A DNA stretch of 64,000 nt. Source: an uncultured SAR116 cluster alpha proteobacterium. GTDB taxonomy: Bacteria; Pseudomonadota; Alphaproteobacteria; Puniceispirillales; Marisalimonadaceae. How positions within the stretch are numbered: position 1 is the first letter of the stretch; every line of letters begins with the position of its first letter. The stretch covers positions 1-64,000 of the forward strand of contig CACBXG010000004.1 of NCBI GenBank assembly GCA_902543145.1, written 5' to 3'. Below the pieces are notes generated by a model. It did no database searches and was not told where the DNA came from. It was given only the letters and a program-made list of their open reading frames with translations. A program made the translations under genes and the position numbers. Below, in pieces: positions 2 to 16,151 of this stretch.

Positions 2-46
2 GAGAGATTAAAAATATTCATTAAAGAATTTAGGAGTAAAATATGA
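2..46 (+). CDS. Possible 3' tail of an upstream gene (partial)
   Basis: One frame is open from the window edge to a TGA at 44-46 that overlaps the next start codon as ATGA. The other two forward frames stop within the first 25 bases. The 14-residue tail is basic (ERLKIFIKEFRSKI). The overlap suggests the helicase block starts further left and that the gene at 43 is translationally coupled to it. The fragment is too short to identify. Confidence 0.35.
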   Translation, partial: ERLKIFIKEFRSKI

Positions 47-516
47 CAAATAAAAATTCCCTAGAAACAATAACAGTAGACATTACTGAAATTGAAAAAA
101 TTCAATCCTTATTATTAAAAACAAATTATGAACTTAATGAAATTTGGACACCAGACCAAGGAAATGAAGTTCAAGTATGGACTAATAAAGAATTAAAAAA
201 AACAATTCATGTTAATATTACCGAAGATAATCCCATAGAAGATAATACAACAAAAGTTGTAAATGAGCTTATCGACTTGTGGGTTGAACTGAGAGCAATA
301 AGAAATGCAGTTGAAGATTACGAAGATGATTATACTTACAAAACAGTAAGAGAGCTATCTGCTTACGAAAAATATAACTCTAAAGTCGAAGAATTTGAGG
401 AAGAATGGAAAGATGATGATAATCATTTAAAGAAAATATTTAAAGAAAATATAGATCCGTCTGTTCTAGCGTTTTTAGATCTAGACGAAGACGACAAATT
501 ATTATTAACTAATTAA
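43..516 (+). CDS. Small acidic protein of unknown function
   Basis: A 157-residue soluble, strongly acidic protein with no signal peptide or membrane segment. The C-terminal half is rich in Glu and Asp (EEFEEEWKDDD near residues 116-126) and is predicted by eye to be helical. The start is supported by AGGAG six bases upstream. It precedes the UvrD-type helicase by only 13 bp, so the two are very likely co-transcribed. I do not recognise the family. An acidic partner or inhibitor of a DNA-acting enzyme is a possible role, but this is inference from charge and position only. Confidence 0.7.
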   Translation: MTNKNSLETITVDITEIEKIQSLLLKTNYELNEIWTPDQGNEVQVWTNKELKKTIHVNITEDNPIEDNTTKVVNELIDLWVELRAIRNAVEDYEDDYTYKTVRELSAYEKYNSKVEEFEEEWKDDDNHLKKIFKENIDPSVLAFLDLDEDDKLLLTN

Positions 517-529
517 TAAGGGGATTATT

Positions 530-2797
530 ATGTTAAATAAAGAACAGTTAGAAGCGTCTGAAATAAAAGACGAAAGAGTGTTAGTTTTAGCTGGTCCCGG
601 AACAGGTAAAACAACAACCTTAGTTAGTCGTTATAAGTATCTTATTAATCAAGGAATAAAACCTGAAGAAATCATATGCTGCACTTTTTCTAAAAAAGCT
701 ACTGATGAAATTAAATCAAGGATAGAAAAAGAATTAAAACTTGATGTAAAAAATTTACCCATTGGAACTTTTCATGCTCTAGCAAACAGAGCTCTAAAAA
801 AATTAGCAAACACTATTAATATTAACGTTCCAAAGGAAGTACTTAGTGAAAAAGAACGAAGAGATATTATAACTAATTTAAAAAACGAAAATCCTAAAAT
901 ACTTGATGAATTAAAGTATTTGGATCAACTTCCAAGTAATGTGCTTCAATACTTAGATCAAGTAAGAGAACAACTACTTGACCCTGAAGATGCAGCCATA
1001 GAAGCATCTGAAAAAGGTGATCCTATTATCATAGCATATGCTGATATGTATAAGTTGTATGAGGAATATCTTTCTCAAAATGGCTTAGTGGATTATACAA
1101 GAATGATCCAATATGCTTATAAAGCATTCGCTGCTGATGCAGAAAAAGATAAATCTTATATAAGTCAATTTAAACATATTTTAATCGACGAATATCAAGA
1201 TATAAATTTTGCCCAAAAATCTATGGTAGATCAATTGTTAAAAGGTGGTTCATCCTTATGGGTTGTTGGAGACGACGATCAAGCAATTTATGGCTGGAGA
1301 GGCAGTAATGTAAAATTCATATTAGAGTTTGAAGACAACTATATTGATGCCAAAAAAGTAATTTTAAATACTAACTATAGATCTGAAAACAAGATTGTTA
1401 TTGCAGCAAACAACTTAGCCAAACGATTTGTTGAAAGGCATCCCAAAAATATAATATCTTTTGGTAATGATGAAGGTGAAGTATCTGTCTTTAAAAATAA
1501 AGATGAAGATCAAGAAGCTTCAAAGATACTAGATTTAATTAATAATAGATCTAAAGAAAAGCAGTATAAAGACATTGCTATTCTTGCTCGAACCAATACT
1601 CTGCCAAAAGCAGTTGTTAAAGAGCTAAGTAGTTCAAATATACCAATGGTTCTAAAAAATAATGTAAATTTATTTAATGATTCATCTACTAAAGATTTAC
1701 TAACTGCTGTTGCAATTGCGAGCGATATCAAACCTCAAATAGGCTGGGATAAAAAAATCAGTCCTAAGTTGTACGGATTTTCAAAGAAATTATTAGAAGA
1801 AAATAATTGGCAAACCAAAATAAAATCTCTGTCAACTAGTGTTAAAAATCAACTATCACCAAAATTAAAAGAGAGCGAGAAGAAAAGTAAAGAAAAAGAA
1901 ATTGAGAATTGCCAAAGCTATCTTGCCCGATATGAGAATGCTTCTAAGGCTTTCCAAGTAATAAGTACTTTGTTTAACCAACCAAAGGATGGAAATGGTG
2001 TGTACATTGGAACTATTCATGGAGCAAAGGGATTAGAATGGGAAACTGTAATTATCATGGGTTGTGAAGATGACAAATTACCTCATTCATTAAATAGTGA
2101 TGTGTGGGAGATAGAAGAAGAAAGAAGAGTTGCATACGTTGGAATAACAAGGCCAAAAACAAATCTTTTCTTAACTTGGTCTGAATCAAGAGATGGGACA
2201 GATAAACTACCATCGCCTTATCTAAGTGAAATACTTGATAAAAAAGCTGATGAGAAAGTTGCAACGAAAGAAAAAGTTTCTAGATATACACCTATGATAG
2301 AAGACTGGAGTATTCAAGCTAAAGAACATCAGAAAAAAATAGAAAGACTAAGACTTGTTCAAATTCATAGAGAAAAAAAGAGAAGAGAAGAATTTATTGC
2401 AGAAAAACAAAGAAGAGCAGAGTTGATTGCTGAAAACCGAAGGGCAATAAATACCTCTATTGCAGATGGCATGGGGCAGGGTAGTGGCTGGATAAAAGAT
2501 ACTGGTAATGGGTTTTTATTAGAGGTAGGTTACAGCGCGATAAAGGGCGGACCTTCAGAAAAAGAAAGACATGATATACTATCAAAAGTATTTAGTGGTC
2601 AAATTGAAATGCCCGACACATTAAAACAAGAAGTAGCTAAAACATGGGGTAAACCTAACTCTATTGAACGCCTTAAAAAAATGAGAAATACTATTAACGT
2701 TGCTCTAGGTGCTCAAAAAGCAAAAACAAATTCTTCACAACAAGCTATTGAAAAATGGGAAAGAGATTTAAATCATATTGATAATATTTTAAAATAG
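530..2797 (+). CDS. UvrD/Rep-type superfamily 1 DNA helicase with extra C-terminal module
   Basis: ATP-dependent 3'-5' DNA helicase family. Visible motifs in order: the N-terminal LNKEQ element (residues 2-6), Walker A GPGTGKT (22-28), DEYQD Walker B (220-224), the motif III stretch DDDQAIYGWRG shortly after, motif V IHGAKGLEW (from about 496) and motif VI YVGITR (536-541). All catalytic motifs look intact. After the helicase core comes a charged coiled-coil stretch (about 600-650, rich in KRREE) and a conserved-looking C-terminal module (about 655-755) with a GYS..GGPSEKER pattern and a later WG.P.S..RL pattern, which I cannot name. The usual PcrA/UvrD tail is absent. An RBS GGGG lies 7 bases upstream of the ATG. 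As first helicase of a four-gene block ending in a GIY-YIG protein, a role in defence or element maintenance is inferred. Confidence 0.88.
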   Translation: MLNKEQLEASEIKDERVLVLAGPGTGKTTTLVSRYKYLINQGIKPEEIICCTFSKKATDEIKSRIEKELKLDVKNLPIGTFHALANRALKKLANTININVPKEVLSEKERRDIITNLKNENPKILDELKYLDQLPSNVLQYLDQVREQLLDPEDAAIEASEKGDPIIIAYADMYKLYEEYLSQNGLVDYTRMIQYAYKAFAADAEKDKSYISQFKHILIDEYQDINFAQKSMVDQLLKGGSSLWVVGDDDQAIYGWRGSNVKFILEFEDNYIDAKKVILNTNYRSENKIVIAANNLAKRFVERHPKNIISFGNDEGEVSVFKNKDEDQEASKILDLINNRSKEKQYKDIAILARTNTLPKAVVKELSSSNIPMVLKNNVNLFNDSSTKDLLTAVAIASDIKPQIGWDKKISPKLYGFSKKLLEENNWQTKIKSLSTSVKNQLSPKLKESEKKSKEKEIENCQSYLARYENASKAFQVISTLFNQPKDGNGVYIGTIHGAKGLEWETVIIMGCEDDKLPHSLNSDVWEIEEERRVAYVGITRPKTNLFLTWSESRDGTDKLPSPYLSEILDKKADEKVATKEKVSRYTPMIEDWSIQAKEHQKKIERLRLVQIHREKKRREEFIAEKQRRAELIAENRRAINTSIADGMGQGSGWIKDTGNGFLLEVGYSAIKGGPSEKERHDILSKVFSGQIEMPDTLKQEVAKTWGKPNSIERLKKMRNTINVALGAQKAKTNSSQQAIEKWERDLNHIDNILK

Positions 2798-2828
2798 CTG
2801 GAATGAAAAATATACTTTTAATGGAGAA

Positions 2829-4427
2829 ATGAAAAAAGTGGATCATATTAAACACATAGCTGAAAATGTGATTAAAACATTTGATAAAGTATCGAGTTTA
2901 ATTAAGTCTCAGACTTCAGAAAATAAATCAATTGATGCTACTAACATTGCATCCATGAATACTTTTACCAGTGCAAGGGCTCTAGAAAATATTAAAGATA
3001 TAAATATTTTCAATAATTCTCAAATTAAGAAATTCTCAGAAGAACCAGCAGTTGCAAGAATACTTTGTGAAGACGAGAACGGTAAGCAGAAATTATATTA
3101 TATTTCTAGAGCAACTCCAATATCTGGCTTAAATGATGAAAAAACAAAATTTGCTAGTTATGGTTCACCAGTTGGTGCTTTAGCTGCACGCAATGTTGGA
3201 AGTGAATTTTTATTACCAAATGGTGAATACCTTGAAGTTATAGAAAAATCAATGCTTAAACCTAGTAGAAATCTTGATGGCTGGGACTCAATAAACACTT
3301 TTATATCATCGAACAAATTTAAAGATATAACTGTAAAATCCCTGAAAGTATTTTTAAAGAACAATGAAAACAATCAAGACTTCGAAATAGAAGATAAACT
3401 TAGTAAAATTCTTGCAGTAGAAAATGATACGTCAAATATATATGAAGGAAAAAAAAGAGATATAATTGAAAGAATGGGTTTAAGAGATCAACCAATTCTA
3501 GATGAATATCAAGACGAAATTTTTAGAATGCCTATTAATAAAAAGCTAATTATTTTAGGACCACCCGGCACTGGGAAAACAACTACTTTAATCAAACGTT
3601 TAGGACAAAAATTAAATAACCAAAATTTAGATGAATCAGAAAAAAATATAATTAGAAATGCTAGTATTTATAATGATGAAATGCATTTTGATAGTTGGAT
3701 GATGTTTACACCGACAACATTATTAAAACAATATTTAAAAGAAGCATTTTCAAGAGAAAACGTGCCAGCATCTGATCTTCGAATAAAAACTTGGGATGAT
3801 CATAGGAGGGAACTTGCTCGATCAATATTTTCAATTTTAAAAACTGCAAACGGTGGTTTGTTTATTCTTAATAATTCAAACATTATAACATCACATGCCA
3901 TATCAAATCCGTTGACTTGGTTCAAAGAATTTCATAACTGGCAAAAAAATAATTTCTTTTTAAATCTTAAAAAATCTATTCTTATTTTAAATCAAGATGA
4001 AGATTCTAGTATAAATAGTATTGTACAGAATCTTGTAAAAATTTTAGAAAATATTGAGGATGTTAATATTGTTGAAGTTTTTGGAGAAATTGCAGCAAAA
4101 CAAGATAAACTTCGAGAGATTGATAATGATTTAAAATCTTCAATAAATAAAATAATTAACTTATTTTTTAATACTCAGTTAAATAATGATGATGATTTTT
4201 TGAATAAAATTGCTAATTTTTTAGATACTTTTGTCGAGTTAGCTGAAGATGAGGATAATGAAATCGATGATGAAGAAATGGAAGAAGAATTAGAAAACGA
4301 ACAATTAATTATTCCTTCTCATCAAAGATTAACTAACGCCAAAAATACTCTAGAGCGTGTTATTAAAGCAGAAGCACGTGCTGTAGTAAGTAAACGTACC
4401 TTAAGTAAAAAACTCAAAAAATTTTAA
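2829..4427 (+). CDS. SF1 helicase, N-terminal half (broken by frameshift)
   Basis: The 532-residue product has an N-terminal region of unknown function (1-230), a Walker A GPPGTGKT (244-251) followed by TTTLIKRL, and a very acidic segment (about 475-495). It lacks Walker B and motifs III-VI. It stops at 4425 just after an A6 run (4416-4421). The reading frame one base ahead is open from 4405 without a stop and continues into the next gene, which holds the missing motifs. The two are therefore halves of one helicase of roughly 897 residues, separated by a one-base shift. The homopolymer makes either a real mutation or a sequence error plausible. GGAG lies close upstream of the ATG, and the gene follows the UvrD-type helicase by 31 bp. 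Confidence 0.75.
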   Translation: MKKVDHIKHIAENVIKTFDKVSSLIKSQTSENKSIDATNIASMNTFTSARALENIKDINIFNNSQIKKFSEEPAVARILCEDENGKQKLYYISRATPISGLNDEKTKFASYGSPVGALAARNVGSEFLLPNGEYLEVIEKSMLKPSRNLDGWDSINTFISSNKFKDITVKSLKVFLKNNENNQDFEIEDKLSKILAVENDTSNIYEGKKRDIIERMGLRDQPILDEYQDEIFRMPINKKLIILGPPGTGKTTTLIKRLGQKLNNQNLDESEKNIIRNASIYNDEMHFDSWMMFTPTTLLKQYLKEAFSRENVPASDLRIKTWDDHRRELARSIFSILKTANGGLFILNNSNIITSHAISNPLTWFKEFHNWQKNNFFLNLKKSILILNQDEDSSINSIVQNLVKILENIEDVNIVEVFGEIAAKQDKLREIDNDLKSSINKIINLFFNTQLNNDDDFLNKIANFLDTFVELAEDEDNEIDDEEMEEELENEQLIIPSHQRLTNAKNTLERVIKAEARAVVSKRTLSKKLKKF

Positions 4428-4584
4428 AATTATAGAATGGTTAAATTCTCGTAACTTAGATCAAAACTCAAAAATCAACCTTGGAAACTTACTTCAAAAA
4501 CAATCAGATCTTAGAAAATTAATCAATCCGTTAAGTAAATATTTAAACAGAATTCCAGCCAGATATAAAATCTACAGAAGTGAT

Positions 4585-5526
4585 ATGAAAAATAATTCCA
4601 GTTGGTATATAAATGATTTTAAAAATGAAAATATAAATGATCTTGAAATTGATATTATAATTTTATCAATACTAAAATCTTATAATCAGTTTATTGAAAG
4701 ACAAGATATCTTCAATAAGATTGATGAACCTGTTTGGTCACCACTTAAAAAGATTTTAACTCTATATAAAAATCAAGTTTTAATTGATGAAGCTACTGAT
4801 TTTTCATCTGTGCAATTAGCATGTATGTCAGCATTATCAAATCCAAAAATTAAATCTGTTTTTTTATGCGGGGATCTAAATCAACGTCTAACTAATTGGG
4901 GAATTAAAACAACTGATGAATTAGAAAAAATTTTTTCAAAGTTAGAAATTAAGAAATTAGACATTCCTTATAGACAAAGTAAACAACTACATGATTTCTC
5001 TAACCAAATAATTAAAAATATGGATGAAAATTTTGTTCCAATAAAAACTCATAGTGAAGATTTGTTCGAAGGTGTCTCACCTTCATTAATAACAAATGCT
5101 ATTACAAAAGAACAAGAAGTAGATTGGTTGGCAGAAAGAATTAAAGAAATAGAAAATTTTGTAGGAAAAATTCCTTCAACAGCAGTTTTTGTTAATTCAG
5201 AAGATCAAGTTCAAGTAATAGGTGAATTACTAGGTAAAGCTTTAGAAAAATATAACATTAATGTTGTGCCTTGTTTTATGGGGCAAACAACTGGACAGGA
5301 CAATGATGTGAGAGTTTTTGATATTCAACATATAAAAGGGCTTGAATTTGAATCAGTTTTTTTTGTTTCTATAGATGATTTATTTATTAAAAATCCTGAG
5401 CTTTTTGATAAGTACTTATATGTTGGTGTAACTAGAGCCGCAAATTACTTTGGATGTACATGCAAGAGAGAATTACCTAAAAAGATTGAATATCTAGAAC
5501 CATTTTTTGAATCAGATTGGAGATGA
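4585..5526 (+). CDS. SF1 helicase, C-terminal half (frameshift-separated)
   Basis: Carries the rest of the helicase begun at 2829: Walker B DEATD (68-72), motif III GDLNQR (96-101), motif IV PYRQS (128-132), motif V QHIKGLEFE (248-256) and motif VI YVGVTRA (279-285). The ATG at 4585 is just the first Met. The same frame is open back to 4405 and encodes helicase-like sequence there (for example KIIEWLNSRNL), with no RBS before the ATG. It is probably not an independent gene. Without the Walker A in the other half it cannot hydrolyse ATP alone. The C-terminus overlaps the next gene by 20 bp. Confidence 0.75.
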   Translation: MKNNSSWYINDFKNENINDLEIDIIILSILKSYNQFIERQDIFNKIDEPVWSPLKKILTLYKNQVLIDEATDFSSVQLACMSALSNPKIKSVFLCGDLNQRLTNWGIKTTDELEKIFSKLEIKKLDIPYRQSKQLHDFSNQIIKNMDENFVPIKTHSEDLFEGVSPSLITNAITKEQEVDWLAERIKEIENFVGKIPSTAVFVNSEDQVQVIGELLGKALEKYNINVVPCFMGQTTGQDNDVRVFDIQHIKGLEFESVFFVSIDDLFIKNPELFDKYLYVGVTRAANYFGCTCKRELPKKIEYLEPFFESDWR

Positions 5527-6112
5527 TTTAATACAAGATTTAGATTTTACAAAAGATCGTCCTTTAATAAAATTTTCCAATGAAATGTTATATGAGTTAT
5601 CAATTTTATGTTTTACTAATAGCAGACTAGATTTAGAAATAGCAACATTAATTTATGAAGAGCTTAAGTTACGAAAAAGTTCAAGTTCAAAAAAATTATT
5701 ATCTGATATTGTGTTAAAATTTTCGTTAATAAATCATGAACCTATTATATGGTTAAATAATGCGAGATTAATAATAAAACAAATAAGAAAAATTGATAAT
5801 AAATCAAAAAATTTAAACTCTATTTATGTAATTCTTCGAGATGGGTACTCTAATCAAAACCTAAGGTATGGAGTTTATGTAGGTGAAACTTCAAAGTCAC
5901 CAGAAGAAAGATTTTCACAACACAAATCAGGAATAAAATCTGCGAGAGGCATACCCAAATATGGCATCCAAATTTTACAAAGCTTATGGCCTTATGGAAA
6001 AGTGAATAGCACCAAAAAATTATGCTATGAAACTAAATTAAATTTAACTTTAAAAAAGGTTATACCAAAAGTCTCAGGTAATTTTGACCTAAAGTTATGG
6101 AACAAATGTTGA
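5507..6112 (+). CDS. GIY-YIG endonuclease-domain protein
   Basis: A 201-residue protein with a helical N-terminal part (1-95) and a GIY-YIG-like nuclease domain (about 104-190). The domain has IYVIL at 106-110 and YGVYVGETS at 121-129 in place of GIY and YIG, the conserved Arg in EERFSQH (Arg135), and a Glu in CYETKL (Glu175) at the position of the metal-binding residue. GIY-YIG domains cut DNA in homing endonucleases, UvrC, some restriction enzymes and T4 Endo II. The start is uncertain: the only long option is a TTG at 5507 overlapping the helicase stop by 20 bp with no clear RBS, so it may depend on coupling or be a shifted C-terminal extension of the helicase. Last gene of the block, convergent with the next one. 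Confidence 0.65.
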   Translation: MNQIGDDLIQDLDFTKDRPLIKFSNEMLYELSILCFTNSRLDLEIATLIYEELKLRKSSSSKKLLSDIVLKFSLINHEPIIWLNNARLIIKQIRKIDNKSKNLNSIYVILRDGYSNQNLRYGVYVGETSKSPEERFSQHKSGIKSARGIPKYGIQILQSLWPYGKVNSTKKLCYETKLNLTLKKVIPKVSGNFDLKLWNKC

Positions 6113-6126
6113 ATTTGTTAAAAATA

Positions 6127-7164
6127 TTAGTTAAATATATTTCCTTGCTTATTAGCTATTATAATTTTTAATTTTCTCATTAATTCTGGGATTTTTCCAT
6201 CTTTACCGTACGATCTTATTTCTTTATTAAAATTTTTTGTAATGTCTTTATAAGGTTCCACTTTTTCTATAAATTGATCAATTCTATTGGTAAAAAATTT
6301 GTTCAATTTATTAGCACGTGATTTTGGAATATTATCAATAAATGAATATGGTATGATCTTGTTAAAATATGGTTTCATATCTAACAATATTGACGACATT
6401 AATATAGCTACTTCAATCTTAATAAGAATGTTAGAGGCACGATTAGTAGCAAGTTTAGACAAATATGGCAAATGACAGGTAACATAAGGTTCAAAAGAAT
6501 CCAAAAATATATGACTAATGTCTTGTTGATCAGAATTAATTTGATTTGAAGATAAATAAGTCCTTACGCACAAACTATTTTTATGGAGGTGACATATAAA
6601 TAAACCATTTTTTGAAGGAACTGGTATGATATAATAATTATTGTTATAAAATAGATTTTTATCTTCGTTATCTAGAAATTTAAAATATGATTGTATAACT
6701 ATAGAAAAAACACATAGGTATTTTAATTCTTCTTTAATGACTTCATATGCAATATCAAATTCCTTCATATTTTTGTTGGCATGTCTTTCAAAAATTCTCT
6801 CAAAAGCATGCATACTGATTTCAAAGCCACCTGCGTAACTAGTATCAAAATCAAAAGGATTTTTAGAAAAATGAATAATAGAACTAAATAAATTTTCTTC
6901 ATCCCATTCTTTTTCATCGTTGTACTTGGATGCAACTAAAAAAGTAATTCCAAAACAAGGGTTTTTACGGGTACCAAATTCTGTTTTATGAAGAGCAAAT
7001 TTTTTTGTGCTTTCAAAGTATGAATTAACTTTTTTCCAAGATCTATTAGAAAAATTATAATTTTTAAATTCAGTGAAAAAATAATCTAGTGTTTGATTTA
7101 CTATTTGATCAGATCGGAAAATAAACTGCTTAGCTAAGCCTTTTTTTAATTGTTGTTGTTCCAT
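6127..7164 (-). CDS. Protein of unknown function with an HAxxRxxxR motif
   Basis: A 345-residue soluble protein transcribed against both neighbours and ending 14 bp from the GIY-YIG gene. There is no signal peptide or membrane helix. The most structured-looking feature is MHAFERIFER in the first half, followed by a helix and then beta-like hydrophobic strands (YYIIPV, GLFICHLH). A His-Ala-x-x-Arg-x-x-x-Arg pattern of this kind occurs in DUF4258 and similar small RNase-fold proteins, but the match is too short to assign. The C-terminal third is helical and basic. It shares a 195-bp divergent promoter region with the ARPP-1 operon. Function unknown. Confidence 0.7.
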   Translation of the reverse strand: MEQQQLKKGLAKQFIFRSDQIVNQTLDYFFTEFKNYNFSNRSWKKVNSYFESTKKFALHKTEFGTRKNPCFGITFLVASKYNDEKEWDEENLFSSIIHFSKNPFDFDTSYAGGFEISMHAFERIFERHANKNMKEFDIAYEVIKEELKYLCVFSIVIQSYFKFLDNEDKNLFYNNNYYIIPVPSKNGLFICHLHKNSLCVRTYLSSNQINSDQQDISHIFLDSFEPYVTCHLPYLSKLATNRASNILIKIEVAILMSSILLDMKPYFNKIIPYSFIDNIPKSRANKLNKFFTNRIDQFIEKVEPYKDITKNFNKEIRSYGKDGKIPELMRKLKIIIANKQGNIFN

Positions 7165-7359: not shown

Positions 7360-8244
7360 ATGACAATTCTAAACATTCAATTTGATGATGTTCATTTTTT
7401 AAATGATGTAAAATTTGGAAGTATAAAATTTCAGCCATTAAAATTCTTATTTAAGAATAAACCCTCAAACTTAAAATCAATGGACCAACTTTTTGAAGAA
7501 GAGCTAGTGTCAGTTGAAGAAATTGGAATTGATGGTCGTGTAGAAGAAGTAAATGTTAAAAATTTTAGTAAAGATTTTCTATTTGTTCCTGACGGTGAAG
7601 CAATTGTAGGAGCAAAACAAAATAGAATAGCTGAAAGATCAGTAATTATTGCACCATACTTTTCCCAAAAGATACCTGTAAAATGTGTTGAACAATATAG
7701 ATGGAATTATGAAGAAGGTACAGAATTTGCAAAAAGTGATTTTGTACTTCATCCAAAAGCTAGGGAGGAAAAAGCAGAGCTACTTAAGAAAGGCGAAAAT
7801 AGCAAAATACAAAATGCAGTTTGGAATAACATAAGCAATTTGTCTGAAAAACATGAAGTTAGTTGTATGTCAATGGATTTAGGCGACATACTTCATAGTT
7901 CCAAAAAATATTATGACTTTGATTATTTCGATAGAATAAAAGATACAAACTTTAACGCTTACATAGTTTCTGGTGCTGGTAGAACATACATAGAGTTTTT
8001 TTATGATGATGAAGTATGTAAAAGACATGTCAAAAAATCGATTAAAGGTTGGATGGCAGATGCTGACGATTTGACAAGGACCGTTGATATCAATAAAGAA
8101 GAAGTCGTTAAATCATTTATCAAAAGTGAGTGGAAAGAAGAAGACTCTATTTCTATCGAGCAGGCGTTTAGTTCTGATTTGAAGAACAGTGGAAGATGTA
8201 TTTTTTTAGCTCAAAATTTAATTCATGCTTATTATTATGTTTAA
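7360..8244 (+). CDS. ARPP-1 family domain protein
   Basis: A 294-residue cytosolic protein. The family signature is clear: DGE (78-80), GAKQNR (84-89) and CVEQYRW (109-115), which is the ARPP-1 pattern (ARG and Rhodanese-Phosphatase superfamily Associated Protein). From memory, this family is found next to ADP-ribosylglycohydrolases and rhodanese-phosphatases and is thought to be linked to ADP-ribose or NAD-related conflict systems; no biochemical activity is established as far as I know. The start has a strong RBS (AAAAGGAG). It is the first gene of a tight three-gene operon with an ECF-sigma-like and a coiled-coil protein. No glycohydrolase or rhodanese is in the window, so its partnership here is different. 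Confidence 0.72.
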   Translation: MTILNIQFDDVHFLNDVKFGSIKFQPLKFLFKNKPSNLKSMDQLFEEELVSVEEIGIDGRVEEVNVKNFSKDFLFVPDGEAIVGAKQNRIAERSVIIAPYFSQKIPVKCVEQYRWNYEEGTEFAKSDFVLHPKAREEKAELLKKGENSKIQNAVWNNISNLSEKHEVSCMSMDLGDILHSSKKYYDFDYFDRIKDTNFNAYIVSGAGRTYIEFFYDDEVCKRHVKKSIKGWMADADDLTRTVDINKEEVVKSFIKSEWKEEDSISIEQAFSSDLKNSGRCIFLAQNLIHAYYYV

Positions 8245-8256
8245 GGAGAGTTCTTG

Positions 8257-8751
8257 ATGTGCGAAGGATGCGAAGAAATAATTAATGAAAAAAAACCTGT
8301 CATAAGACAGGCCGCTTTTAAGTATAAAAATGATTTTGTTGGAGCAAATGAATTAATCTCAATAATTAATGTTAAGTTTTTTAGTTGGAAAAGAAAACAA
8401 GAAGGACCTATTCAGGTAAATAACAGCTTTTTTCATAAGATTGCTCATAATGCTGCGATTGATGAAATAAAAGAATATGAAGTAAGTATTGATAGTCCAG
8501 ACCATAAATCATTAGTTGAAAAAATACATTTTCATGATCCTTCTTCCTTTGTATTAGCGCAAAGAATAATGAAGGATTGCTCTCCAGAAGAAAAAGACGC
8601 TCTCATGTCAATAGTTAATAGGGAAGATCCCGAGGAATTTGCAAATAGATACAATATTAATTATGCAAATGCAGTTCAAAAAAGAAGACGAATAGTCAAA
8701 AAAATTAAAGACAGACTATTTTCAAAAAACTTGGAGAGAAGTCATGGATAA
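8257..8751 (+). CDS. ECF sigma factor-like / sigma-70 domain protein
   Basis: A 164-residue protein. Residues about 58-80 (FFHKIAHNAAIDEIKEY) match the region 2 pattern of ECF sigma factors (F..IA.N.AID.IR). Residues about 107-155 (SPEEKDAL through an EEFANRYNINYANAVQKRRR helix-turn-helix) match region 4. The product starts with a Cys pair (MCEGCEE) that could bind a metal or redox ligand. I chose the ATG at 8257 over a TTG at 8254 because AAGGAGAG ends six bases before it. It lies 12 bp after the ARPP-1 gene and overlaps the next gene by 8 bp. No obvious anti-sigma factor with a membrane segment is adjacent, and the soluble neighbours could play that part. Divergence from typical sigma factors leaves a DNA-binding regulator as the alternative. 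Confidence 0.6.
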   Translation: MCEGCEEIINEKKPVIRQAAFKYKNDFVGANELISIINVKFFSWKRKQEGPIQVNNSFFHKIAHNAAIDEIKEYEVSIDSPDHKSLVEKIHFHDPSSFVLAQRIMKDCSPEEKDALMSIVNREDPEEFANRYNINYANAVQKRRRIVKKIKDRLFSKNLERSHG

Positions 8752-9466
8752 GAACTTAATCACATTATATGAACTTCAGTTATATGTTAAATCATGGGGT
8801 AACAGTAATAATGACAGGGTTAAAATATTTTTAGAAAATGTTTTTCAAATGGGGATTTCATCAAGATACGATGATATTTTTCCAATGACAGAATTTGAAT
8901 ATGGTGATTTGTTAATATTGGACCAAGAATTTATCTATGATGAATATATAAAATTTTTAGAAAAAAATGAGATTTTTGACGATGTTCTTTTTTACATCGC
9001 AGAGAACGAATATCAAAATTTCTATGAACAAATTAAATATGCTTTCAAACCATTAGAAGATATAACAAAACACTTTAAAACTAGAAAAAAATTAATTGAA
9101 GAAGAAATAGAAAGGAAAAGACAAGAAGAAATCGAACAAAAAAAACGTGAAGAATTAATGAAAAAATTACGCGAAGAAATTCAAAACGAAAGTGAAAATG
9201 AAGAATACAAATCAACATCATTTAAAAGAGAAATAAATGCAAGTGAGAGTATAGAAATGTCGCAGATGATTGATTTAAATTCATTTTTCCCAAGTGGTGA
9301 TATTTATACCCCACCTGAAACATTTGAAGAAAAATTACAAAGGCAAATGGGGGTTAATATCAACAAAGATTTACAAGCAAATATTTATGCTCGTATTAGA
9401 ATAGAAGAGCATCTAAAAGAAATTAATAAATTAAAATCAACACTTACAAATATTTTTTCAAATTAG
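8744..9466 (+). CDS. Coiled-coil protein of unknown function
   Basis: A 240-residue protein with an acidic, Tyr/Phe-rich N-terminal domain (1-110), a long charged coiled coil (about 115-165, runs of E, K and R) and a short C-terminal helical tail. No signal peptide, membrane helix or known catalytic motif is visible. The ATG overlaps the stop of the sigma-like gene by 8 bp, so translation is almost certainly coupled and the proteins probably work together. The coiled coil suggests oligomerisation or binding of the sigma-like protein. Unrecognised family. Confidence 0.72.
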   Translation: MDKNLITLYELQLYVKSWGNSNNDRVKIFLENVFQMGISSRYDDIFPMTEFEYGDLLILDQEFIYDEYIKFLEKNEIFDDVLFYIAENEYQNFYEQIKYAFKPLEDITKHFKTRKKLIEEEIERKRQEEIEQKKREELMKKLREEIQNESENEEYKSTSFKREINASESIEMSQMIDLNSFFPSGDIYTPPETFEEKLQRQMGVNINKDLQANIYARIRIEEHLKEINKLKSTLTNIFSN

Positions 9467-14681: not shown

Positions 14682-15908
14682 TCAATTTATGTTTTTTAAA
14701 GACTTAACCTCTGCAGATTCAATTAAATTTCCGTTTAAAAATAAATCCCACTCATTCATTATTTTATGTCTTTTATTTAATAAATTTGTTCTTAAATAAG
14801 CACTCTCTGTTTTATTATTATTCTGATGTGACAAGCATAATTCTATAGCCCTTCTAGAAAAATTATGCTGTTCTTCTGCCCAATCTCTGAAAGCGGATCT
14901 AAATCCATGAACAACTGATAATTTATGAATTTCTGGGTAGTTTTCTTTTAAAAATTGAAGCATTGCGTTATTAGAAATATGGGTATTAGGCTTTATGCCG
15001 GGAAAAACATAAACTTCATCTGAATAGGGACGGATTTTTTCCAAAACATTAATTGAACTCTGATTTAAAGTTACTGTATGTGCAACTCTAGTTTTAATTC
15101 TATCCTCTGGAATATTCCACACTTTAAAATCTAGATTAAATTCATCCCATCTTGCTCCAATAACCTCACTTGTCCTTGAGGCAGTAAGAATTAAAAAAAG
15201 TAGCGACATACCAGAAAATAAGTTTGAGTTTTTTAATTGGTTTATAAAACTAGGAAGTTTTTCATAGGGAAGTGAGCGATGATGTTTCACTTTTTTAATT
15301 GTTGCGGATTTAGGCAGTAGATATACTAAATTATCATTTAAAGTTGCAGGGTTAGGGAAGTCTCTATACTTCAATGCAATCGACCATGATAGTATTTTTT
15401 CAATTCTTTGTCTTACTCTTGAAGCTGTTTCGTGTTTAATGCTCCAAATTGGTTTAAGAATATTTAAAATATGATTGTTAGTGATATGATATACAGGTAA
15501 TTTACCAATTTTTGGAAATACATATTTCTCTAGGGTAGATGTCCATTGCTTAGCGTGTTTTTTATTAGTCCATTGAACCTGATGAGTTTGAATGTACTCA
15601 GATGCTGCAATTTTAAATGTCATAGATTCTTTTTTAATTCTATCAATTTTAATAGTATTTTTTTCTAAAATAGGATCAATATCCTTAAGGATTAAAATTT
15701 TATTTTGGTCTCTTTTCTTTCTTGCTTCAGCCAAAGAAATATCAGGAAAAGACCCTAATCCCATGTCTTTTGTTTTGCCATACCATCTGTATCTGTAAAT
15801 CCATTGTTTATTACCAGATTTTGTAACTCTTAATCTAAGACCATCATAGTCAGTATATATACCCGGTTTTTTTAAATTTTTTATGATAATAGATGTAAAT
15901 TTTTTCAT
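14682..15908 (-). CDS. P4-type tyrosine integrase
   Basis: A 408-residue site-specific recombinase of the island. An N-terminal DUF4102-type arm-binding domain (about 1-85, with GLRLRVTKSG and KDMGLGSFPDISLAEAR) is followed by a SAM-like core-binding domain (about 97-190) and the catalytic domain. The catalytic residues are Arg245 (TASRTSEV), His334 and Arg337 (HGFRS), His361 (LSHQ) and the nucleophile Tyr371 (SAYLR), so the enzyme looks active. It lies 151 bp from the 3' end of tRNA-Ser and reads away from it. A duplicated AAAAAGAGGG lies just upstream and the nearer copy supplies the RBS. It should excise and integrate the island at the tRNA 3' end. Confidence 0.93.
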   Translation of the reverse strand: MKKFTSIIIKNLKKPGIYTDYDGLRLRVTKSGNKQWIYRYRWYGKTKDMGLGSFPDISLAEARKKRDQNKILILKDIDPILEKNTIKIDRIKKESMTFKIAASEYIQTHQVQWTNKKHAKQWTSTLEKYVFPKIGKLPVYHITNNHILNILKPIWSIKHETASRVRQRIEKILSWSIALKYRDFPNPATLNDNLVYLLPKSATIKKVKHHRSLPYEKLPSFINQLKNSNLFSGMSLLFLILTASRTSEVIGARWDEFNLDFKVWNIPEDRIKTRVAHTVTLNQSSINVLEKIRPYSDEVYVFPGIKPNTHISNNAMLQFLKENYPEIHKLSVVHGFRSAFRDWAEEQHNFSRRAIELCLSHQNNNKTESAYLRTNLLNKRHKIMNEWDLFLNGNLIESAEVKSLKNIN

Positions 15909-16059: not shown

Positions 16060-16088
16060 TGGCGGAGGGAGGGGGATTCGAACCCCCG
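16060..16088. other. Probable attachment site (tRNA-Ser 3' end)
   Basis: The 3' part of the tRNA-Ser gene (CCA, acceptor strand and T-arm) is the usual crossover region for P4-type integrases. The orientation of the tRNA and the position of the integrase place this as the integrase-proximal junction. The core cannot be delimited without the second copy, which was not found in the window. Confidence 0.4.
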
Positions 16089-16151
16089 AAAGGGATTGCT
16101 CCCTTTAACGATTTAGCAAACCGGCGCCTTCAGCCACTCAGCCACCCCTCC
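16060..16151 (-). tRNA. tRNA-Ser(GCT)
   Basis: On the minus strand the sequence folds as a class II tRNA: acceptor stem GGAGGGG paired with TCCCTCC (one G-T), a D-arm, an anticodon loop TTGCTAA giving anticodon GCT (reads AGC/AGU serine codons), a long variable arm (AAAGGGAGCAATCCCTTT), a T-arm GGGGGTTCGAATCCCCC, discriminator G and an encoded CCA. The length is 92 bases including CCA. It is the integration target of the island. Confidence 0.95.

Follow-up and report, generated by a model that had tools for sequence, protein, structure and literature searches.

Gabija, which comprises the OLD nuclease GajA and the UvrD-like helicase GajB, is a system in which, as in the locus analysed here, a UvrD-like helicase occurs with a nuclease. 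UvrD-like helicase domains are likewise present in a defence system composed of a helicase and a DUF2290 protein (PMC10952713), and a GIY-YIG nuclease is likewise employed in phage defence (PMC12923530) by PD-T4-3 / CMoRE, i.e. single-protein GIY-YIG type IV restriction, with CMoRE having an N-terminal GIY-YIG domain and a C-terminal sensor domain.

The window, i.e. the whole 64,000-nucleotide stretch of DNA analysed, derives from an uncultured SAR116 cluster alphaproteobacterium (genome G000, contig C4) and begins with genes for a small acidic protein (A), a PcrA/UvrD-like helicase (B), a second helicase, broken here (C), and a GIY-YIG-like protein (D). No model in PADLOC, NCBIfam or Pfam names the A-B-C-D set, in agreement with the first-pass annotation, which had placed it with no known system. 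A combination of a GIY-YIG protein and a UvrD-type helicase with this make-up was not found in the literature at the level of titles and the starts of abstracts, with subscription papers mostly outside that coverage.

Comparison with Gabija shows that B matches many of the PADLOC GajB models (best 277 bits), a generic SF1A similarity for which the PcrA model scores higher, but that it differs in its C-terminal module and in its partner. The OLD-TOPRIM domain (PF20469) was found in none of the nine genomes with A-B, which are incomplete, and in four of 14 control genomes; none of the window proteins A-H has an OLD match in PADLOC or Pfam. Identity with Gabija was rejected because the OLD-TOPRIM partner was not found in the nine A-B genomes. 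In the helicase-DUF2290 system the partner protein is small; A has no match to DUF2290 (PF10053), which was detected in none of the nine genomes and in no control genome. D is unlike CMoRE in that its GIY-YIG-like part is C-terminal, in that it has no PADLOC match and in that a helicase core lies upstream. The intact homologue of C resembles plasmid UvrD-like helicases of ~890 residues that are annotated as 'ATP-binding domain-containing protein', whereas the C of the window is broken.

Layout of the locus and its island

The features of the window that are considered here are as follows.

43..516, + strand: A, small acidic protein of 157 residues, pI 4.34, with no convincing family
530..2797, + strand: B, PcrA/UvrD-like SF1A helicase of 755 residues (Pfam, PDB profile)
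2450..2797, + strand: unnamed C-terminal module of B, ~115 residues, with no significant Pfam match
2829..4427, + strand: first half of C, with its own N-terminal domain and Walker A motif; stop after a frame change
4405..4427, + strand: A-rich stretch of the frame change in C, where two stop-to-stop frames overlap
4585..5526, + strand: second half of C, with the remaining helicase motifs; frame open back to 4405
5507..6112, + strand: D, GIY-YIG-like protein of 201 residues, basic, pI 9.61
14682..15908, − strand: tyrosine-type integrase of the island (Pfam Phage_integrase and Arm-DNA-bind_3)
16060..16151, − strand: tRNA-Ser(GCT), likely island boundary

A, B, the two frames of C and D form five open reading frames in one direction. 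D has a TTG start, which is its first start codon and lies inside the end of the second half of C, giving an overlap of 20 bases. Nothing upstream of A is visible because the window starts at the contig start. The first-pass annotation had described a four-gene unit in an integrase/tRNA-Ser island, with an acidic small protein, a UvrD-type helicase carrying an extra C-terminal module, a second large SF1 helicase and a GIY-YIG endonuclease-like protein. The small acidic protein, the helicase with its module and the integrase with its tRNA-Ser are all borne out, as is the common direction of the frames. The idea of a single four-gene system does not survive, as there are five frames, C is broken and the full set occurs in one of the nine A-B genomes, i.e. 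that of the window, the only one in which C and D occur together; nor is the second large helicase one intact gene, since it lies in two frames in the window and an intact homologue, of 897 residues, is present in one other genome, G023.

The sequence of three genomes diverges just past the 3' end of tRNA-Ser(GCT), and the boundary of the island likely lies just beyond that end. The same tRNA is at the island in the window, in G022 and in G023 (in G023 on the contig carrying C), and a tRNA-Ser(GGA) is present in G043 beside a relative of the window integrase with 38% identity. Integrases of three kinds occur in seven of the nine A-B genomes, with the window type in G003, G004, G022 and G023 (67.9-87.4% identity) and a different kind in G065; the 17-kb stretch of G026 and the 14-kb stretch of G015 yielded none. 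The island integrase of G003 (L013 8849-10069) is divided between two open reading frames in different frames and so looks broken in that genome.

With respect to the proteins of the core, A has no convincing family among the Pfam, PADLOC and NCBIfam models; its fold model has a pLDDT of 63 and no PDB match reaches an E-value of 0.001 or better, so that no fold is assigned to it. B gives Pfam scores of 225 bits for UvrD-helicase and 133 bits for UvrD_C, and its best PDB-profile match is PcrA (278 bits, profile positions 2-393); in NCBIfam it scores 323 bits with PcrA (cut-off 911) and 284 bits with Rep, both below the cut-offs. Matches to B were found in 2978 plasmid and 150 phage records, but in none of them is 80% of the query covered at a single site. 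The last ~115 residues of B form a separate module, which also occurs in small separate proteins in three of 298 other Pseudomonadota genomes (L028, L029, L030), and it is perhaps a widespread uncharacterised domain. PDB-profile matches of the module were weak and mostly to myoglobin (best E 0.048), and were taken as chance.

Recurrence of A-B and the genes found with it

Our sample comprised 101 mutually related, incomplete genomes, in which B orthologues were defined by at least 58% identity; the other matches, mostly at ~30% identity over part of B, are general UvrD/PcrA-type helicases. By this definition B is present in nine of the 101 genomes, i.e. that of the window and eight others at 58-93% identity, and the distribution of A-B is sporadic. 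A is directly upstream of B in all nine, with a spacing of 12-14 bases in seven and of 0 and 77 bases in the other two, and its sequence diverges to 30% identity, yet it stays before B. The genes are under purifying selection: dN/dS values for the window versus three relatives are 0.07-0.12 for A and 0.07-0.09 for B, and those for D of the window versus its relatives are 0.19-0.21, with higher values elsewhere (0.57 for D in L011 versus L013, and ~0.47 for A and X, a protein described below, in L012 versus L016).

Recurrence in unrelated genomes, which the first-pass annotation had put forward as a check, was not seen for A. A scan of genome contigs for A gave nine loci, all from SAR116, and no relative beyond that group, using two peptide patterns with which distant relatives can be missed; among 385 genomes of the class only the window's own contains A. 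Nor did pattern scans of IMG/VR with A, D, X or the B module reveal any relative. One A homologue with 38% identity lies on a 7-kb contig of AG-343-K16 (L024 605-1114) without B beside it, and is followed by a protein that is DnaJ-like by eye.

The gene standing behind B varies between genomes. D follows B directly in G003 and G004, with gaps of 4 and 6 bases, and X follows it directly in G022; in the window B is followed by C and then D, and in G023 by C, with D not found there and the order of B and C derived from two contigs. In G015, a convergent DrmD-like helicase gene and a second unnamed gene stand between B and D, and in G026 the same two convergent genes follow B up to the contig end. 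X precedes A in G065, where neither D, C nor X is behind B, and in G043 the contig ends inside B. Contig ends thus limit the view downstream of B in three of the nine genomes, i.e. inside B in G043 and G023, and behind the DrmD-like gene in G026. Where a partner adjoins B, it is 4 or 6 bases away or overlaps by 23 bases. The variable gene behind B and the constancy of A-B lead us to take A-B as the stable unit and its partner as exchangeable. The figures for co-occurrence with A-B by chance (D, 3e-5; X, 0.007; C, 0.007) assume independent genomes, which these are not.

D is present in four of the 101 genomes, all of which have A-B; in each it shares the strand of B and lies downstream of it, and in two it is the next gene. 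Its assignment to the GIY-YIG proteins, made in the first-pass annotation, holds at the level of residues and falls short of the Pfam cut-off: Y107, Y124, G126, R135 and E175 are invariant in all four homologues and are, by our assignment by eye, presumably the GIY-YIG motif residues (Y, YxG, R, E), whereas the Pfam GIY-YIG score of the window D, 20.8 bits, is under the curated cut-off of 22.6. The GIY-YIG family matches three of the four homologues at E-values up to 0.1 (best 4.2e-4). The fold model of D has pLDDT values below 50 over residues 118-201, the GIY half. Neither D nor X has a match in plasmids or a significant one in the PDB. A second small protein that is GIY-YIG-like by eye is encoded near A-B-D in G004 (L011 5207-5713) and G003 (L013 6655-7161), the L011 copy of which has no PADLOC match.

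X is present at full length in two of the 101 genomes, G022 and G065, both with A-B, and the two copies are 40% identical. RNVISH in one copy aligns with RNETSH in the other, and we take this RNxxxH motif to be HEPN-like (R-x4-6-H). No family match was obtained for X with Pfam and PADLOC (both copies) or NCBIfam (one copy). Their C-terminal domain is found in addition in three other genomes of the order, G008, G050 and G059, which lack A-B; there it is joined to a different N-terminal part (L057, L058, L059).

C is found in two of the 101 genomes and is not found in seven of the nine with A-B. In the window it is split into 2829-4427 and 4405/4585-5526, two frames that overlap only over 4405-4427, whereas the homologue in G023 is in one frame. 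The first half is 70% identical to the G023 copy and the region 4405-5520 is 83% identical, with dN/dS values of 0.19 and 0.14 for the first and second halves, respectively. Since both halves still look constrained, the frame change is recent, an assembly error or tolerated; as G023 codes C in one frame, a programmed frameshift is no more likely than a recent mutation or an error of assembly.

The intact C of G023 matches 10 of 72,556 plasmid records and one of 298 other genomes of the phylum, and shares 31.9-43.3% identity with nine plasmid proteins over 99-100% of its length. Eight of the 10 matching plasmid regions were viewed (all except H23 and H30). The C relatives lie amid restriction-modification (RM) genes in Aeromonas, Raoultella and Vibrio plasmids; in a Croceicoccus plasmid the relative overlaps an HNH gene, in a Sphingomonas plasmid it abuts a PLD-type restriction endonuclease gene, in an Aminobacter plasmid it follows a PD-(D/E)XK gene, and in Rhizobium and Caulobacter it lies amid plasmid genes. 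No relative of A, B or D was found by tblastn in these eight regions. The C family gives weak generic matches only with PADLOC (27.9 bits at best). C is most readily understood as an accessory helicase that was added to the A-B island. A 345-residue protein without family, encoded at 6127-7164 on the − strand of the window, is 56% identical to the product of the gene adjoining intact C in G023 (L037 2749-3771), and its position beside C is common to both genomes.

A Cas4-like PD-(D/E)XK protein is encoded upstream of A in G026 and G023 (L009 8550-9320 and L014 2360-3133, respectively; 34.7 bits with Pfam PDDEXK_1 for the L009 copy), and is a possible further partner of A-B. An 86-residue frame upstream of A in G026 was considered as a piece of X, but the longer stop-to-stop frame is unlike X by eye and it was not counted.

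Known defence genes lie beside A-B in four of the nine genomes. They are those for BREX PglX, PglZ and BrxL in G023, a type I RM system and a DrmD-like helicase in G026, a C5 methylase, Vsr and a restriction (Mrr-) helicase in G065, and a DrmD-like helicase in G015. None of seven scanned neighbours in the window and none of three in G022 has a PADLOC match, and one of three in G004 has a match, to a protease domain only; the scan of G043 covered the integrase only and G003 was left out. The argument from a defence-island setting thus holds in four genomes and says nothing about the window.

A C-terminal tail shared by D and X

The ending DCIFPF, in the versions SEEDCIFPF or SDDDCIFPF, is common to D of G003, D of G004 and X of G022, although D and X, which stand at the same place, have unrelated bodies. 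The B proteins of G004 and G022 are 98% identical. Among 215 stop-to-stop frames of at least 100 residues at ten loci, these three are the only ones ending in PF, and the back-translated DCIFPF pattern occurs in three of the 101 genomes, exactly at these D and X genes, with no occurrence for the reversed control. At the codon level the DCIFPF of D is separated from that of X by two synonymous changes, a small number which nevertheless fits selection on the protein. The tail is absent from the D of the window, the D of G015 and the X of G065.

The C terminus of the single-stranded DNA-binding protein SSB reads DLDDEIPF in the three genomes in which it was read (G000, G003 and G004); no SSB was detected in G022 or G015. 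DDDIPF, the tip of SSB, is an established docking peptide (PMC5872125, PMC10164576), and DCIFPF is similar to it, with one residue more. Mimicry of SSB by the tail, which this similarity may reflect, is a lead and not a result.

Interpretation, alternatives and further genes of the islands

We propose, at slightly less than an even chance and from sequence comparison, that A-B together with an exchangeable nuclease-like partner may constitute a modular helicase-nuclease system that is mobile and whose role is most likely anti-phage. The proposal builds on the observed gene order, recurrence, partner exchange, shared tail and purifying selection, and on the defence genes seen in four of the nine genomes. 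It retains the helicase-nuclease theme of the first-pass annotation, in the form of A-B plus an exchangeable partner, but not the composition given there, which is that of the window only. Counted against it are, among other points, the known defence genes seen in four of the nine genomes only, the detection of A relatives in SAR116 only, the occurrence of the X C-terminal domain elsewhere without A-B, the tail missing from some partners, and G023, where, as far as the contig ends show, the core is accompanied by C and by neither D nor X.

A rather unlikely alternative is that A-B serves the mobile element, i.e. in replication, integration or repair of the island, with D, X and C being unrelated passengers of a hot spot. 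PcrA/Rep-type helicases generally serve element replication, and the integrases in seven of the nine A-B genomes would suit such a role, as would the many neighbours without a defence match, including the ARPP-1 and sigma-like genes described below. Against this alternative are the close placement of the partners against B and the fact that D was not found without A-B among the 101 genomes; the IMG/VR pattern scans, with no relative of A or D, and the G026 and G015 stretches, in which an integrase was not found, also speak against it. The plasmid relatives of C, which stand beside an HNH, a PLD-type and a PD-(D/E)XK gene in three of the eight regions viewed, with A, B and D found in none of the eight, raise a different possibility, namely that two systems lie back to back, A-B being one and a separate C-D pair the other, with C working with whichever nuclease adjoins it. 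The 20-base overlap of D with the end of C in the window is in keeping with such a pair, but in G003 and G004 D adjoins B with no C between them, G023 has C with D not found, and C is broken in the window, such that we consider this arrangement improbable. We regard as very improbable an exchangeable toxin-antitoxin-like set with A as antidote, D or X as toxin and B as a DNA sensor only: the small size and acidity of A (pI 4.34), the basic nature of D (pI 9.61) and the interchangeable partners are as might be expected of such a set, but A goes with B in nine of nine genomes, is tied to neither D nor X, and persists through changes of partner.

Under our preferred reading, that of a modular helicase-nuclease system, the biochemical steps, the target and the anti-phage role, all of which we infer, might be as follows. 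As a 3'-5' SF1A motor, B would load onto invader DNA at ends, forks or gaps and move along it, with A as an acidic partner that may restrain B or the effector, or bridge the two. The killing step would come from the exchangeable effector beside the core, i.e. D as a GIY-YIG-like DNA nuclease or X as a putative HEPN-like RNase, and in one subclade the effector tail may dock either on a subunit of the core or at sites that bind the SSB tip. C would be a separate accessory helicase, located between B and D in the window and broken there. A more specific form of this reading, which we consider doubtful, sees in A-B the unvarying sensor core of an immune system of marine SAR116 bacteria, as yet undescribed, in which unrelated nuclease effectors are swapped in one slot and, in part of the clade, a tail mimicking the SSB tip recruits effectors to replication forks or to the core. 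If true, these proposals would give an abundant lineage of the surface ocean a further immune system of the helicase-nuclease kind, and one slot behind an unchanging helicase core would be seen to accept different effectors. The tail common to two unrelated effectors would then be a directly testable docking code, with immune effectors using a mimic of the SSB tip.

Other genes of these islands were also apparent. The DrmD-like SNF2 helicases (L009 25-4851 and L010 6243-10967) score 729 and 730 bits with PADLOC DrmD; the gene is followed by one for a ~500-residue protein that resembles an ASKHA/actin-type ATPase by eye, both being convergent to A-B, and the L009 copy of the latter protein has no Pfam or NCBIfam match. 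No other DISARM genes were noticed in the DrmD-like stretches read. In the window, a co-directional block at 7360-9466 encodes an ARPP-1 domain protein (149 bits in Pfam), one whose match to sigma-70 region 2 is weak, and the product of a third gene; relatives of these genes lie upstream of A in G004 (L011 15422-17915), so that the block is another cassette of these islands.
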